Positions 1-34,047 of a stretch of 35,420 nt of DNA are shown here, piece by piece. Under the pieces are notes generated by a model. That model saw only the letters and a list, made by a program, of their open reading frames with translations. It had not been told where the DNA came from and made no database searches. Within the stretch, counting starts at the first letter, position 1, and every line of letters begins with the position of its first letter. The stretch is taken from contig CALVKO010000009.1 of the NCBI GenBank assembly GCA_944332725.1, positions 1 through 35,420 on the forward strand, written 5' to 3'. The DNA comes from an uncultured Bacilli bacterium. Lineage in GTDB: Bacteria > Bacillota_I > Bacilli_A > RF39 > UBA660. A program made the translations under genes and the position numbers.

Positions 1-101
1 AAATGTTAGGTCATAGTTCATTATCTACTACACAAATATATACTCATATTTCAAATCAAAAATTAAAAGATGAATATGCCAAATTCCATCCTCACGGATA
101 A
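1..101 (+). CDS. Tyrosine recombinase XerC/XerD-like, C-terminal tail (partial)
   Basis: An open frame enters from the left edge and stops at the TAA at 99-101. The visible residues contain [14 protein letters not shown], which is the last catalytic block of tyrosine recombinases: the GH of the His/Trp box and the active-site Tyr of the QIYTH segment. They end shortly afterwards in KFHPHG. In XerC/D this is the extreme C-terminus, so only about 32 residues are inside the window. The family resolves chromosome dimers at dif or moves integrative elements; which of these applies cannot be told from the tail. The end overlaps the start proposed for the next gene. Confidence 0.85.
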
Positions 102-1247: not shown

Positions 1248-2549
1248 ATGCAAAGATTTATGACTGATAAGCTAATTGAATGGAAAAGTAGCAAAACTAG
1301 AAAACCATTAATTTTGAAAGGTGCAAGACAAGTAGGGAAAACCTTTTTATTAAAGTCATTTGGTGAAAAATACTATAATAATGTTGCATATTTTAATTTT
1401 GACCATGATGAAGGATTAGCGGCTTTATTTAATAATACTAAAGATCCAAAAAGAATTATTGAGCAATTGATATTAGTAAACGGGGATAAAATTGAACCAG
1501 AAAATACTTTAATTATTTTTGATGAAATTCAAGAATGCCCTAATGCTTTAAATTCATTAAAATATTTTTGTGAAGAAGCTAATGAATATCATATCGCTTG
1601 TGCAGGCTCACTATTAGGAATAAGATCATCAAAAACTTCTTTTCCTGTTGGTAAAGTAGATTTTTTAAATTTATATCCAATGTCATTTAGTGAATTTTTA
1701 ATTGCTGATGATTGTCAAAATTTAGTTGATTATATGAGACAAAAAAAAGATGTATCGGAAATACCTTTAATTTTTGAAGAACAATTGATGGAAAAGTTAA
1801 AAGCATATTATATTGTCGGAGGAATGCCTGAAGCAGTTTATATTTGGGTTATGGAAAGAGATATTGCTAAAGTAAATTATATTCAAAAAAACATATTAAG
1901 CGCTTATGAAAGTGATTTTTCTAAGCATACTGATAGTAATGAAGCTAATAAAATATCTTTAATTTGGAATGGAATTCCTGCCCAATTAGCTAAAAAAAAT
2001 AAAAAATTTATTTATCAAGTTGTTAAAGAAGGAGCAAGGGCTCGTGAATATGAAAATGCTTTAAATTGGCTTAATGATGCTAATTTGATAACAAAATGTT
2101 ACAATGTATCTAAATGTGCTTTTCCTCTAAAAGCATATTATGATTTATCAGCTTTTAAAATATATATGAACGATGTTGGATTATTAAGACAAATGGCTAA
2201 TTTAGATAGTAAGATAATATTAGAAGGTAATAAATTATTAGAAGAATTTAAAGGTGCATTTACAGAAAATTATGTTATTAACACTTTAACATATTTATAT
2301 AATAATGTTCCTAATTATTATACATTTGATCGCAATGAAATTGATTTTGTGATTCAAAAAGAAAACAAAATTATTCCCATCGAAGTTAAATCTAATAAAA
2401 GCACTAATCATAATAGTTTAACAAAGTATAATTCGAATAATGATAATTTAATATCATATCGTTTTTCAGCTAATAATTTAAAAAAAGATGGAAAAATACT
2501 AAATATTCCTTTATATTTTATCGAATATATTGATAATCTTGATATTTAA
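1248..2549 (+). CDS. AAA-family ATPase with DUF4143 C-terminal domain (COG1373)
   Basis: 433 residues starting at an ATG behind AAAAGGGGA. The N-terminal AAA domain has Walker A GARQVGKT (25-32), Walker B LIIFDEIQ (Asp92, Glu93) and a sensor segment ACAGSLLG (118-124). The C-terminal DUF4143 region ends in a PD-(D/E)xK-like signature: EIDFV with Asp366, then IEVKS with Glu379 and Lys381. The family is common in bacteria and archaea and often occurs in several copies; its substrate is not established, and a link to mobile elements or stress is only suspected. The gene is monocistronic, with a repeat-bearing promoter in front and a terminator behind. Confidence 0.9.
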   Translation: MQRFMTDKLIEWKSSKTRKPLILKGARQVGKTFLLKSFGEKYYNNVAYFNFDHDEGLAALFNNTKDPKRIIEQLILVNGDKIEPENTLIIFDEIQECPNALNSLKYFCEEANEYHIACAGSLLGIRSSKTSFPVGKVDFLNLYPMSFSEFLIADDCQNLVDYMRQKKDVSEIPLIFEEQLMEKLKAYYIVGGMPEAVYIWVMERDIAKVNYIQKNILSAYESDFSKHTDSNEANKISLIWNGIPAQLAKKNKKFIYQVVKEGARAREYENALNWLNDANLITKCYNVSKCAFPLKAYYDLSAFKIYMNDVGLLRQMANLDSKIILEGNKLLEEFKGAFTENYVINTLTYLYNNVPNYYTFDRNEIDFVIQKENKIIPIEVKSNKSTNHNSLTKYNSNNDNLISYRFSANNLKKDGKILNIPLYFIEYIDNLDI

Positions 2550-28335: not shown

Positions 28336-28596
28336 ATTGATATTAACTAAAGTGCATCCCACATTAAATGGATGAATTTTATATTCAATAACTTTTTTAT
28401 TTCTAGATAAAGTTAATTGAGTAGTTTCTTTTAATGTTCCACTACCAATTCCATGTATTATCACAATAAATTTGTTTTTCATTTTTATATTATCATTAAT
28501 AAAATCATTTATCGCAACACGAGCAGTTTCACGATCAAAGCCATGCAAATCTAAACTAGGAAGACTATCTATAAATATTATATCATTTAAATTCAT
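28324..28596 (-). CDS. Stand-alone Smr domain protein
   Basis: 90 residues, essentially one Smr domain as found at the C-terminus of MutS2. LDLHGFDRETAR and the IIHGIGSGTLKE (HGxGxG) motif are intact, ending in NVGCTLVNINL. Smr domains nick or cut nucleic acids; in MutS2 they act on collided ribosomes or recombination intermediates. No MutS part is present and the upstream neighbour is a sugar kinase, so this is a solo Smr protein. It overlaps the PfkB gene by 14 bp. Its last codons carry the -35 of the next gene. Confidence 0.88.
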   Translation of the reverse strand: MNLNDIIFIDSLPSLDLHGFDRETARVAINDFINDNIKMKNKFIVIIHGIGSGTLKETTQLTLSRNKKVIEYKIHPFNVGCTLVNINLTK

Positions 28597-29470
28597 TATA
28601 TACTGCTTCCATTTCTTCTTTCAATGGAATTGAATTTCTAGTACCAATTCTACTTACTGATATAGCTCCTGCATAATTAGCTAACTGTAATGCAAATTTA
28701 GGATCATATCCATTTGCTAAATAATACGTTAAGGCCCCATGAAATATGTCGCCAGCACCAGTAGAATCAACTGCTCTTAGTTTTATTGATTTAATTATTT
28801 CATAATTATATAAGCAGCCTTTATCTTCTAAAGTTACAACTATTTCGTTTTTGAATATTTCTTTTAATTTAGTATAGACATTTTTAATTGTTTCAAAGTT
28901 ATCATAATCTATTTCTAAATTAGTTACATTTTCAGCAAAATCTTTAGAACAAGCAACCCATTTAACCATTTTACATAATTCTACCACTTCAGCAGTATCT
29001 CTTCCTGCATCAATTATACTTAATGCTTCCGGATATTTATTTAAAATATCTTTGCTCATTTCATATTCTTGACCATCGATTAATATAACATCAGGAGTAA
29101 AATCTAATTCAAATTTAGTCATTTCTACTTTTTTAGGTTTGTAAGCAAAAGTAGTTCTTGAACCATTTTGTTTATTGGCCAAAACAAAACTAGATGTTGT
29201 TTCATGTCCATTCCTTAATTCTAAATAATCAGTATTTACATTTACATTATTAAATTCTTCCTTTATTTTATGACCATAAAAATCATTTCCGACAATACCT
29301 GCAAAATATACATCGCTTCCCCAACTTCCTAATAAATAAGCAGCAGTACTAGCAGGGCCACCGCCACATTCTATTCTTTCTTGAACTCTATTTTTTGTAT
29401 TTTCAACTGGATATTCGTCCAATGGTAATGTCACATCATATGTAGCATGACCTAAACATAATATCTTCAT
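28583..29470 (-). CDS. PfkB family carbohydrate kinase
   Basis: 295 residues from ATG 29470 after GGGTGAT; the longer frame has no ribosome binding site. Ribokinase-fold sugar or nucleoside kinase. The N-terminal signature is ECGGGPASTAAYLLGSWG (substrate-binding glycines), with GIVGNDFYGHKI; the C-terminal ATP/anion-hole signature is DSTGAGDIFHGAL with catalytic Asp in GAGD. The substrate (ribose, fructose or a nucleoside) cannot be assigned. It is cotranscribed with the Smr gene. Confidence 0.9.
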   Translation of the reverse strand: MKILCLGHATYDVTLPLDEYPVENTKNRVQERIECGGGPASTAAYLLGSWGSDVYFAGIVGNDFYGHKIKEEFNNVNVNTDYLELRNGHETTSSFVLANKQNGSRTTFAYKPKKVEMTKFELDFTPDVILIDGQEYEMSKDILNKYPEALSIIDAGRDTAEVVELCKMVKWVACSKDFAENVTNLEIDYDNFETIKNVYTKLKEIFKNEIVVTLEDKGCLYNYEIIKSIKLRAVDSTGAGDIFHGALTYYLANGYDPKFALQLANYAGAISVSRIGTRNSIPLKEEMEAVYNEFK

Positions 29471-29515: not shown

Positions 29516-29538
29516 TAAAAAAGACAATTAATTTGTCT
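29516..29538 (-). terminator. Intrinsic terminator closing the accessory region
   Basis: AGACAA/TTGTCT with a five-base loop and six T on the minus strand. It would end transcripts from the toxin gene before the PfkB promoter. Confidence 0.7.
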
Positions 29539-29543
29539 CTTTT

Positions 29544-29575
29544 ACAACTGCTTGTACCACTGTCATATTCGTGGG
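29544..29575 (-). repeat. Diverged intergenic element, copy 1
   Basis: On the minus strand this reads CACGAATATGACAG, then TGGTACAAGCAGTTGT. It matches 32195-32227 (CACCAAATGAGACAG, then CAGCACAAGCTGTTGT) at most positions, with one indel. Both lie on the minus strand of the accessory region after a gene. Neither forms a convincing intact gene in this window. Confidence 0.45.
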
Positions 29576-29649: not shown

Positions 29650-30117
29650 TTATTTTAATTCATCTAACATCTTTTGTTTTAAATTATCTATATCAGTAAA
29701 AAACAAATTTGTACCCCTCTTCTTTAAACCTAACATATTTTTAAACAATCTTTTGATTTCATGTTGCAAGTCAGTTGGAACCTTTAATGGAATACCATCA
29801 ACAGTATGCACATGATCTATGTATTTTTCTAATGTTGGAAATGCATTTTGCAGTAATATGGCAGCATCTTCATCTGCTATTTTTCTTATTATAATTGTAT
29901 TACAAAAACCATATTTTTCTTGTTTTTTATCTATTATCTTTCTATATTTATCTATTTTAGAACTTATTGGTATAAACCACAAAATATCTTTATCTTTAAT
30001 AGTAAAATAAGTTGGTCTTTTTTTACCCTTCTCATGATTTTGCATTAGATTTTCATCATTTACTATATCAAAGTATACGTCTTTTATATGATATAAATAT
30101 CCTGTTTTAATTTCCAT
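29650..30117 (-). CDS. Type III toxin-antitoxin system toxin, CptN/ToxN-like endoribonuclease
   Basis: 155 residues from ATG 30117, nine bases after GGAG; the longer frame runs back into the terminator. The sequence GYLYHIKDVYF, then RPTYFTIKDKDILWFIPISSKIDKY (Ser52, Ser53, Lys54), YIDHVHTVDGIPLKV and a closing IDNLKQKMLDEL fit the CptIN branch of the ToxN/AbiQ family from memory of those proteins. PISSK is the counterpart of the catalytic Ser/Lys patch of ToxN. Such toxins cut mRNA and are held by a repeated pseudoknot RNA. The upstream 2.1 RNA repeats and the terminator between them and the gene give the whole type III layout, which strongly supports the call. Confidence 0.85.
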   Translation of the reverse strand: MEIKTGYLYHIKDVYFDIVNDENLMQNHEKGKKRPTYFTIKDKDILWFIPISSKIDKYRKIIDKKQEKYGFCNTIIIRKIADEDAAILLQNAFPTLEKYIDHVHTVDGIPLKVPTDLQHEIKRLFKNMLGLKKRGTNLFFTDIDNLKQKMLDELK

Positions 30118-30152
30118 ATGCATCATCTCCGTAAAAATTATATCATAAAACA

Positions 30153-30179
30153 AAAGAAAACTCCATCTTACGATGAAGT
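30153..30179 (-). terminator. Terminator between antitoxin RNA repeats and toxin gene
   Basis: ACTTCATC/GATGGAGT (one G-U) with a GTAA loop, followed by TTTCTTTT on the minus strand. In type III systems a leaky terminator at this point sets the RNA-to-toxin ratio. An extended -10 (TGATATAAT, 30137-30145) follows and might give extra toxin mRNA. Confidence 0.85.
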
Positions 30180-30186
30180 TATTCTG

Positions 30187-30291
30187 CATTTTCAACCAGG
30201 ATCATTTATTAGTCGCACCACCTGGAAGCGAAAAACATTGTCGCCTGGAATCACTTATTATTCGCACCATCCAGAAGCGAAAAACATTTTC
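30187..30291 (-). ncRNA. Type III antitoxin RNA: 2.1 tandem 49-nt repeats, pseudoknot-forming
   Basis: Read on the minus strand, repeat 1 is 30291-30243, repeat 2 is 30242-30194, and a third copy is cut after its first seven bases GAAAATG (30193-30187). Each unit is 49 nt. Within a unit, bases 12-15 (TCGC) pair with 27-30 (GCGA), and bases 18-22 pair with 43-47. The two stems interleave as an H-type pseudoknot, as in ToxI and CptI RNAs. Between units the second stem changes at three of five pairs and stays paired: CTGGA/TCCAG versus CCAGG/CCTGG. Transcription would start near 30305, where CACT-GAAA-AGTG forms a short 5' hairpin. Confidence 0.88.
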
Positions 30292-30311
30292 ACACTTTTC
30301 AGTGCAATATA

Positions 30312-30340
30312 AATATACTATATTTTTATGAAAATGTCAA
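30312..30340 (-). promoter_or_regulatory. Promoter of the type III toxin-antitoxin locus
   Basis: On the minus strand: TTGACA (30335-30340), 17 bp, TATATT (30312-30317), about 20 bp before the first repeat. Confidence 0.8.
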
Positions 30341-30397
30341 TTAGTATACATTTATATTATATTCATTTTTCTAAGTAACAATTCATTTTATATTCAC

Positions 30398-32325: not shown

Positions 32326-34047
32326 TTAAATATAAAGATCTACTAATAATGGCTTAGTCAAGTGAACTCTAGATAACTCATCGTGATACTTTGCGTAGTT
32401 ATCTGCATCATCTTTTGTTATCACAATTCTACCAAGAAATATATCCTCGTCATTTATTCTATCCGATGTCTTATCTATTCTTCCTAATTCATTTGCAAAA
32501 TTTAGGTGCCATTCTATATGATCATTATCTACTACTATTTTTCTTACAAAAGAATCAACTAACTCATCAGAAACTTCACCCCTCTTATAATTAAGCTTAC
32601 TAGTAATAATTCTTTCACACTCTCTTAATCTCTCTTCAACAGTAATAATAGAAGTTGGTGTTTCAACATCATACTTTAACAATTGTAAACGAAGATCCCC
32701 AATTTCCTTTTCAAGTTCCCCATTCTTCAAAGTGTATCTTTCTTTATCGATAGTACCAGATATTAATGCATCCAATAAGTTATCTGATTTCTTATTTAAA
32801 GAATCTATTTGCTTCTTAAGATTCAACTTTTCCGTTTCTATTTTATCAACCTTATCCTCCTTTACAGATTCCTTAAGCAATGATTCAATAATACTTAATA
32901 TTTGCTCCTTCTCATACCATATCTTATTAAAAACGATAAAGGCTACAATTCTCAGTTTCCACTCTGGAATAGACCTAGTTGAACAAATACCATCAATACT
33001 CAAGCCGTGTTTCATTCTTGAAGAAATCGTACCAGTTCTTCTTTGTGCATAACATTGATAACACAATGTAATTTCACCATCTTTACTAATATGATATTTT
33101 CTCTTTTGCATAGTTGAGCCACATTGACATATTAATTTCTTACCATAAATAGTAGTAGGTAATTTACCTGCTCTTTTCTCACCATCTTGACAATTAACAC
33201 GATGACCAGCAATCATTTCCTGTACTTTGTTGAACTCTTCTTTACTTACAATAGGTGTATGACTACCCTCTACAACTATTTGCTCTACTTCACCATTATT
33301 TTTCTTAGGTTTTTGCTCTAAAAAATCTGGAATATATGATTTGTTATATACAATAGTACCACAATAAAATGGATTACGAAGTATTCTAATGATAGTAGCA
33401 GGATCCCAATGAGCAAGACCACTAGCAGTTAAATATCCAGCCTTTTCTAACTCGTATTGAATACTCTTGCTTTTATTGCCTTTAAGGTACAAATCAAAAA
33501 TCAATCTTACTGACTCTGCCTGTTTCTCATTTATAATCATCTTTCCATCTACTCTGTCATAACCCAGTATATTTCCATTACCATAAGGAACACCATTTAA
33601 AAATGTAATCTTTTGTCCAGCCTTAATCCTTGCTGAAATTTTGCCAGATTCATTTTGGGCTAGTGTAGCCATAATACTTAATCTAAGTTCACCATCTTGT
33701 TTGTTAAAAGTCCAAATATTATCTTCAGTAAAATAAACTTCTACACCCATCTTTGCTAGTTCTCTTGTCTTGCTCAAAGTATCAACAGTATTACGTGCAA
33801 ACCTAGAAACTTCACGAGTCACTATCAGATCAAAGCAACCATTTTTTGCATCTTCCATCATTCTCATAAAGTTTGGTCTTTTTTCAGTTGACGTTCCTGT
33901 AATTCCTTTATCTATGTACCTTTCAACTAATATCCAATCATGATGTCTTGCCATTAGTTCATCGTAATATTGAATCTGATTTTCTAACGCTGATAATTGC
34001 TCTTTATGTTCAGTTGATACACGAGCATAAATAGCGACCTTTCTCAT
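32326..34047 (-). CDS. Large serine recombinase (site-specific integrase, TndX-like)
   Basis: 573 residues, full length. The resolvase domain has the nucleophile Ser11 in YARVSTEH, the conserved DLIVTREVSRFARN and the segment MATLAQNES. The recombinase domain contains GYDRVDGKMIINEKQAESVRLIFDLYLKG and RILRNPFYCGTIVYNKSY. A zinc ribbon has CQCGS and CYQC pairs. A coiled coil (IETEKLNLKKQIDSLNKKSDNLLDAL) and a C-terminal tail end in KPLLVDLYI. It integrates and excises an element by attP x attB recombination. The ATG follows AAGGAGATG. The base composition is clearly less A+T-rich than the chromosomal genes to the left, as expected for transferred DNA. Confidence 0.95.
   Translation of the reverse strand: MRKVAIYARVSTEHKEQLSALENQIQYYDELMARHHDWILVERYIDKGITGTSTEKRPNFMRMMEDAKNGCFDLIVTREVSRFARNTVDTLSKTRELAKMGVEVYFTEDNIWTFNKQDGELRLSIMATLAQNESGKISARIKAGQKITFLNGVPYGNGNILGYDRVDGKMIINEKQAESVRLIFDLYLKGNKSKSIQYELEKAGYLTASGLAHWDPATIIRILRNPFYCGTIVYNKSYIPDFLEQKPKKNNGEVEQIVVEGSHTPIVSKEEFNKVQEMIAGHRVNCQDGEKRAGKLPTTIYGKKLICQCGSTMQKRKYHISKDGEITLCYQCYAQRRTGTISSRMKHGLSIDGICSTRSIPEWKLRIVAFIVFNKIWYEKEQILSIIESLLKESVKEDKVDKIETEKLNLKKQIDSLNKKSDNLLDALISGTIDKERYTLKNGELEKEIGDLRLQLLKYDVETPTSIITVEERLRECERIITSKLNYKRGEVSDELVDSFVRKIVVDNDHIEWHLNFANELGRIDKTSDRINDEDIFLGRIVITKDDADNYAKYHDELSRVHLTKPLLVDLYI

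Follow-up and report, generated by a model that had tools for sequence, protein, structure and literature searches.

Does the minus-strand segment 29650-30340 of the window (the whole 35,420-nt stretch of DNA analyzed here, from an uncultured Bacilli bacterium) hold a complete type III toxin-antitoxin locus, is its antitoxin RNA of a new kind, and what might the locus do where it lies? The initial annotation had proposed, at these coordinates and without naming a strand, a promoter (TTGACA-17-TATATT), 2.1 copies of a 49-nt repeat, an intrinsic terminator and a gene for a 155-residue CptN/ToxN relative. The coordinates fit, and every one of these elements is present on the minus strand, in the order TTGACA-17-TATATT, short hairpin, two 49-nt units, terminator and 155-codon gene. 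From sequence comparison and structure prediction, the segment is very probably a CptIN-family type III toxin-antitoxin locus. Its anatomy is complete, which we state with high confidence, and we infer its activity. The sequence of its antitoxin RNA is new, and the shape and kind of that RNA are known. The features of the locus are as follows.

30335..30340, minus strand: antitoxin promoter, -35 element TTGACA (promoter scan; similar site in relatives)
30312..30317, minus strand: antitoxin promoter, -10 element TATATT (promoter scan; similar site in relatives)
30292..30305, minus strand: 5' leader hairpin GCACU-GAAA-AGUGU (from the sequence; starts about where transcription should begin)
30241..30289, minus strand: antitoxin (CptI) unit 1, 49 nt, H-type pseudoknot (tandem repeat, unit profile, alignment, covariation)
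30192..30240, minus strand: antitoxin (CptI) unit 2, 49 nt, H-type pseudoknot (repeat, profile, covariation, alignment with CptI_Er)
30159..30180, minus strand: intrinsic terminator stem-loop between antitoxin and toxin (9-bp stem, then T's)
30137..30145, minus strand: toxin-proximal extended -10, TGA-TATAAT, TGATATAAT (between the terminator and the toxin ribosome site)
29650..30117, minus strand: CptN-family toxin gene, putative endoribonuclease of 155 aa (ATG at 30117, stop ending at 29650; profile, PDB sequence, predicted fold)

The toxin belongs to the CptIN family. NCBIfam NF047359 (CptIN) scored 159.5 bits against a cut-off of 90 and was the only curated family above its own cut-off, and a search of PDB sequences gave one significant match, E. 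rectale CptN (4RMO chain A, E 4.3e-21), with 53 of 137 aligned positions identical (39%). The same search returned no ToxIN or AbiQ sequence at E <= 10, and Pfam held nothing significant for either the toxin or the repeat. An AlphaFold2 model of the toxin, built from 16 window and locus proteins, reached a pLDDT of 88 and a pTM of 0.84, with the lowest confidence at residues 26-32. Its top match in a structure search was again 4RMO (Z 19.8, 147 aligned residues, 2.2 Å), followed by ToxN/AbiQ at Z 13.1-13.3 and MazF-like mRNA interferases at Z 10.1 and below, so that the predicted fold is closer to CptN than to ToxN or MazF. The profile, the PDB sequence match and the predicted fold agree with the CptN kinship proposed in the initial annotation.

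The earlier choice of PISSK as the Ser/Lys site also finds a counterpart, as IPISSK of the toxin aligns with IPLSSR of CptN_Er. In this mapping, which is our own, S52-S53-K54 stands opposite S51-S52-R53 and probably corresponds to the published Ser-Ser-(Arg/Lys) active site. Among the positions equivalent to the adenine-binding Asp81, Ser85 and Tyr104 of CptN_Er, D82 is kept while Ala85 and His104 differ; these residues are not known to be a defining trait of the family. His104 is found in 15 of 16 aligned toxins, including that of the window. The tyrosine of CptN_Er is described as binding and stacking at the scissile region, where it contacts the scissile adenine (PMC4627078). Given the changes from Tyr104 to His104 and from Ser85 to Ala85, cutting specificity may differ from that of CptN_Er, and the base at the cut site may be read differently by the window toxin.

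The repeat was detected as two 49-nt copies, 78% identical, at 30187-30284. In the register of the RNA, the units run from 30289 to 30241 and from 30240 to 30192, and the AAAUG left over after the second accounts for the 2.1 copies counted previously. Tandem identity peaked at 0.80 for a period of 49; in dinucleotide shuffles of these 300 nt, 500 in all, it averaged 0.55 and never rose above 0.68. The repeat was also the best tandem of period 40-55 across the 300-nt tiles of the window; it was absent from the list of Tandem Repeats Finder at score 30. In Rfam 15, the repeat region reached the gathering score of no family, the lowest E value (0.063) being that of ncr952 with 20 bits against 100. 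This and the other sub-threshold matches (CRISPR-DR26 and others) were taken as chance.

A unit profile found paired units upstream of most relatives with upstream DNA available. Matches were kept at E <= 1e-3 if they spanned more than 40 model positions, weaker or partial ones being discarded, and the resulting 127 units from 63 loci were reduced to 75 distinct units and aligned. The alignment supports an H-type pseudoknot of 10 pairs that has a short L1 and an A-rich L2, with S1 formed by columns 9-13 and 27-31 and S2 by columns 16-20 and 44-48, in which 94.8% of cells are paired. Cells changed on both sides numbered 104, where shuffles gave 32.2 (sd 4.0) and slid registers 0-10; these controls carry no correction for descent, though the slid registers have the same descent. 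Such double changes occur in 8 of the 10 pairs and in both stems, and the two copies in the window themselves show paired changes in S2 (CUGGA/UCCAG in the first, CCAGG/CCUGG in the second). Further standard pair types, 13 in number, were not above the 15.1 of the shuffles, and the outer pair of S1 fails in 29 of the 75 units, the second copy of the window included.

The kinship of these units with CptI_Er is seen at several levels. In the E. rectale system, A29 and U30 of CptI_Er are both reported to be required for antitoxicity (PMC4627078); all 75 units have A at the counterpart of loop A29, and 71 of them have T at the counterpart of kink U30. Aligned with CptI_Er, the second copy of the window outscored 1000 of 1000 shuffles; the first copy did no better than its shuffles, of which 83 in 1000 scored at least as high. 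Units of the loci L103, L074 and L078 bridge to CptI_Er (z 5.0 and 6.2; two L078 units, z 11.8 and 10.0). The unit boundaries in the window, GA/AAAUG, GA/CAAUG and GA/AAAUG, resemble the CptI_Er processing site, given as A45 with flanks GA and AAG (PMC4627078). Across the alignment, 62 of 75 units end in GA and 13 in GU or GC, so that the GA cut site does not hold throughout the clade. Since no Rfam family was reached, and since covariation, the kept loop bases and the kinship with CptI_Er all point the same way, the repeat is, on comparative sequence grounds, a CptI-type H-pseudoknot whose sequence is new but whose kind is known. The idea of an undescribed antitoxin RNA therefore holds for the sequence and falls for the kind, given a pseudoknot of CptI type whose parts follow the order seen in E. 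rectale CptI, with its A-rich loop and tails.

How strictly the units accompany the toxin was judged on 61 distinct genes of the clade with at least 58% identity, window included, of which 54 are intact and 7 broken. They remain from 85 gene rows after removal of five repeats of one record, of L044 (cut by a contig end, two units), of nine genes whose upstream region is absent (L017, L018, L027, L030, L032, L033, L035, L046 and L094) and of nine distant genes (L073-L075, L078-L081, L084 and L095); the count also excludes further CptN matches with no assigned locus and the genes of later-added loci, including those from IMG/VR. Two units are present at all 54 intact genes. The 7 broken genes comprise three with two units, three with one and one with none, so units are missing in 4 of 7 (Fisher p 6.7e-5, not corrected for descent). 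Loss of units only beside a dead toxin is what would be expected of an essential antitoxin, and the presence of repeats beside homologous toxin genes, together with the profile, PDB and fold evidence, bears out the type III layout proposed at the outset. The labels intact and broken were assigned by hand: L037 was taken as broken (early stops, though at a contig end), L036 as having one unit, and L021 as intact, yet it carries ATA where the other genes have a start codon. L024 and L011 have just 156 and 212 nt upstream, and a further unit past the contig end is possible.

Because the repeats lie within the leader of the same transcription unit, ahead of the terminator, they might instead be a cis-acting leader of the toxin gene (an attenuator or mRNA-stability element) and not a trans-acting antitoxin, but this is most improbable given a pseudoknot conserved unit by unit with boundaries like cut sites, two full copies where a leader would not need them, and the kinship with CptI_Er, whose single repeat is antitoxic according to the published work (PMC4627078). 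Slightly better placed, although still unlikely, is a decayed or silent CptIN remnant with the right anatomy and its activity gone. Decay does occur in the clade, as the broken genes show, and the att junction of the window (see below) has diverged from those of its relatives; nevertheless, the frame is open over its full length, both units, the promoter, the terminator and the ribosome site are all in place, and the gene of L002, whose toxin is 99% identical to that of the window, is likewise intact.

The elements that would drive the locus are shared with its relatives to differing degrees. The antitoxin promoter, with its 17-nt spacer and 11 of 12 matches, is the best of 13 promoter-like sites in a scan whose count is not above chance (11.4 expected, sd 3.1). 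TTGAC-16..19-TAnnnT, a loose pattern with no shuffle control, occurs in 51 of 52 distinct intact genes having at least 300 nt upstream, the window included. The leader pattern matched in 39 of the 54 intact genes. A 5' stem forms in 35 of these leaders, weakly in L002 and L039, and not in L041 or L042; among relatives, the stem shows paired changes (GCACU/AGUGU, GCUACUU/AAGUGGU, GCCAUU/AAUGGU and GCACA/UGUGU). The terminator is the only one found by the scan, where 0.2 (sd 0.6) were expected, and a custom scan found a terminator-like stem with a T run in 47 of the 54 intact genes. By eye, direct and inverted TATACTA-like repeats surround the antitoxin promoter in the window (30312-30370, minus strand) and in relatives (GAATATACTATnAATGTATACTA ... 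TAGTATATT), and could possibly form an operator. Similarity between loci seems to start near GAATATACTA.

Type III toxins have been described as placed behind a terminator (PMC5086642), and the toxin here has the same position. It is also preceded by the extended -10. The pattern TGnTAnnnT lies within 50 nt of the toxin start in 48 of the 54 intact genes, against 9.6 in shuffles, an excess that relatedness inflates, and in 30 of these 48 it stands at -28; on inspection, three distant genes (L073, L074 and L078) apparently lack it. This element is possibly a second promoter serving the toxin, which would depart only slightly from the type III layout.

By analogy with E. rectale CptIN and ToxIN, which are our guides for RNA cutting, inhibition and toxicity, the locus may operate as follows. 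One promoter would give an RNA carrying the 5' hairpin and the two CptI units; most transcripts would stop at the terminator and some would read through into CptN, the expression of which is perhaps aided by the extended -10. CptN, acting as an endoribonuclease, would cut this RNA behind the terminal GA of each unit, and the pseudoknotted products would stay bound to CptN and keep it inactive; the complex expected of a CptIN system is a 2:2 toxin-RNA heterotetramer. If transcription stopped or the RNA ran short, free CptN would cut cellular RNA and growth would halt.

The closest known system is E. rectale CptIN (4RMO; PMC4627078), and as described there it shares with the window the toxin family and, by prediction, the fold, two repeats, the H-type pseudoknot, an A-rich L2 loop with AUAAAUG, and 5' AA(U)GUUU and 3' UUGA tails (window unit 2). 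Both also have a terminator ahead of the toxin gene (for E. rectale, PMC5086642). The window differs in a unit of 49 nt instead of 45, with a longer L2, in the residues at positions 85 and 104 of a toxin with 39% identity, and in its place at a ppdK junction and its additional toxin-proximal -10. The ToxIN systems of Pectobacterium, B. thuringiensis and E. coli, and AbiQ, have in common with it the type III layout and a Kid/MazF-like toxin fold, whereas their units, as listed in PMC5086642, measure 34-36 nt and are repeated 2.8-5.5 times. The CptIN family, for which the 2015 paper (PMC4627078) validated three loci, gains a deep clade here, with natural variation enough to back the pseudoknot by covariation, and a possible second toxin promoter, the 5' hairpin and a possible cassette system are leads that the locus opens.

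The surroundings of the locus bear on how it arrived and why it might be kept. They comprise three further features.

29527..29568, minus strand: island/chromosome junction (attR), with homology to the empty ppdK 3' end from CAAGC at 29554-29550
28583..29470, minus strand: chromosomal PfkB-family kinase, which follows ppdK in the empty site (domain search, L061 comparison)
32326..34047, minus strand: large serine recombinase with Resolvase and Recombinase domains (assigned to the island by position)

The sequence 3' of the toxin, CAAGCAGTTGTAAAAGAGACAAATTAATTGTC, equals the 3' end of ppdK and leads into the PfkB-family kinase as in the congener L061, whose empty site (1501-1640) has ppdK running straight into that kinase; this comparison places the CptIN locus next to the ppdK 3' end. 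The ppdK gene was identified on L009 by TIGR01828 (1414.5 bits) and elsewhere by its C-terminal motif, which was not found in the window's genome (71% complete). In our reading, a genomic island has inserted into the ppdK 3' end, the window holds one end of this island, and CptIN is its last cargo; the contig stops at 35420, and the other end of the island was not observed. The recombinase, taken by its position to be part of the island, resembles CcrB (E 2e-42, but 145.6 bits against a model cut-off of 900). It was not found in the loci of the first-collected relatives, which mostly have short flanks, and in L128 a serine recombinase 42% identical to it ends about 160 bp before the att site. 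A fragment of a second resolvase-like gene lies near the contig end (35004-35387, minus strand). The conserved block after the toxin had also been considered as a coding remnant (LFIPNEIVVQAAIKE) and as an integron attC-like hairpin. Both readings were dropped for that of an att site, with the displaced ppdK 3' end as its right half, which explains the block better.

In six relatives (L003, L005, L006, L009, L013 and L029), 263-275 nt separate the end of ppdK from the start of the toxin. In all of these but L003 the att core follows the toxin, so that in L005, L006, L009, L013 and L029 CptIN alone fills the insertion. In L028 (100-993), an 844-bp CptIN unit is flanked by direct repeats of the att site, 50 nt long and perfect. 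In 22 of 69 gene rows (21 of 66 when the duplicates L083, L086 and L087 are removed), the att core follows the toxin start at a distance of 514-572 nt. The core matched 34 times in 0.97 Mb of sequence, both strands counted, and 3 times when that sequence was mononucleotide-shuffled once. A strict att pattern matched none of 40 relatives and 18 of 291 genomes of the family, its reversed control matching none. AbiD/Abi_2 genes, too, are followed by this att site, 170 nt away in L016 (1227-2096), 129 nt in L118 (390-1370) and about 760 nt in L014 (1236-1877), and other att sites, e.g. in L112 and L120, follow no recognized gene.

The hotspot itself is not new, since the same ppdK codons are a published attB of conjugative transposons of Bacteroidota (PMC11005914). 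As described there, these PvCTn elements use the same codons at the ppdK 3' end, with the stop regenerated. They differ in belonging to another phylum and in being full conjugative elements, whereas the window has a large serine recombinase nearby and some insertions among its relatives carry nothing but CptIN and measure about 830 bp. A literature search gave no paper linking ppdK with type III systems among the matches listed (e.g. the best 20 of 611). A bolder proposal, which we regard as rather doubtful, is that CptIN moves between gut Bacilli genomes as a gene cassette with no recombinase of its own: single genes such as CptIN or AbiD, less than about 1.3 kb long and each closed by the same ~50-nt site, would be mobilized in trans by the large serine recombinase of an island and accumulate at the ppdK 3' end. 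If true, this would amount to an integron-like array for defense and addiction built on serine recombination.

The ppdK context suggests a route by which small type III modules get into the chromosomes of gut Bacilli and a reason why they are kept. By analogy with E. rectale, the most likely service of CptIN would be to stabilize its island, with abortive phage defense as a second possibility. That the latter is instead the main service, with the same locus and biochemistry, is a serious contender but not the favored reading: the AbiD/Abi_2 genes share the att site, and ToxIN, AbiQ and TenpIN loci are described as aborting phages (PMC5086642). However, PADLOC gave no significant match for toxin or repeat, the toxin matching an unrelated model only weakly (E 0.01), and CptIN_Er is reported to keep a plasmid in E. 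coli and to have stopped none of over 200 coliphages (PMC4627078), which is why we rank island stabilization first.

Among sampled genomes, CptIN above the cut-off occurred in 33 of 193 from the window's family, in 8 of 392 from its phylum and in 7 of 60 from a mixed set of relatives, samples that overlap, and L003 and L013 each have two CptIN in tandem. GenBank phages gave no match, and plasmids gave four distant ones. One scan of IMG/VR with two short patterns returned four CptN loci (L136-L139). Their upstream tandem identity was 0.88 in L136 and 0.79 in L139; L137 and L138, with the same upstream sequence, gave an ungapped tandem of only 0.61 but, by eye, two similar units. All these values are without a shuffle control. 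In L136 (3001-5642), on a contig classed as viral in IMG/VR, CptIN lies beside conjugation-like genes (scores under curated cut-offs), and it therefore looks like an integrative element and not a phage.

Among the distant CptN genes, L079-L081 have no upstream repeats, and their CptN-like domain, under the cut-off, sits in open frames of 274-279 aa. The upstream tandem of L084 does not exceed its null, and that of L095 is marginal (0.65 against a null maximum of 0.61). In L073, L074, L075 and L078, whose identity is 41-43%, clear tandem repeats with units of 46-50 nt bridge to CptI_Er, and the genes of L074, L075 and L078 are interrupted or short under table 11. The CptN genes of L074 and L075 (G113 and G131) contain in-frame TGA and come from single-contig genomes of 0.9-1.0 Mb, in which TGA is perhaps read as Trp. 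In L095, a tRNA-Gly(TCC) predicted by ARAGORN (2134-2207, minus strand) lies directly before the CptI-like repeats, as if co-transcribed with them.
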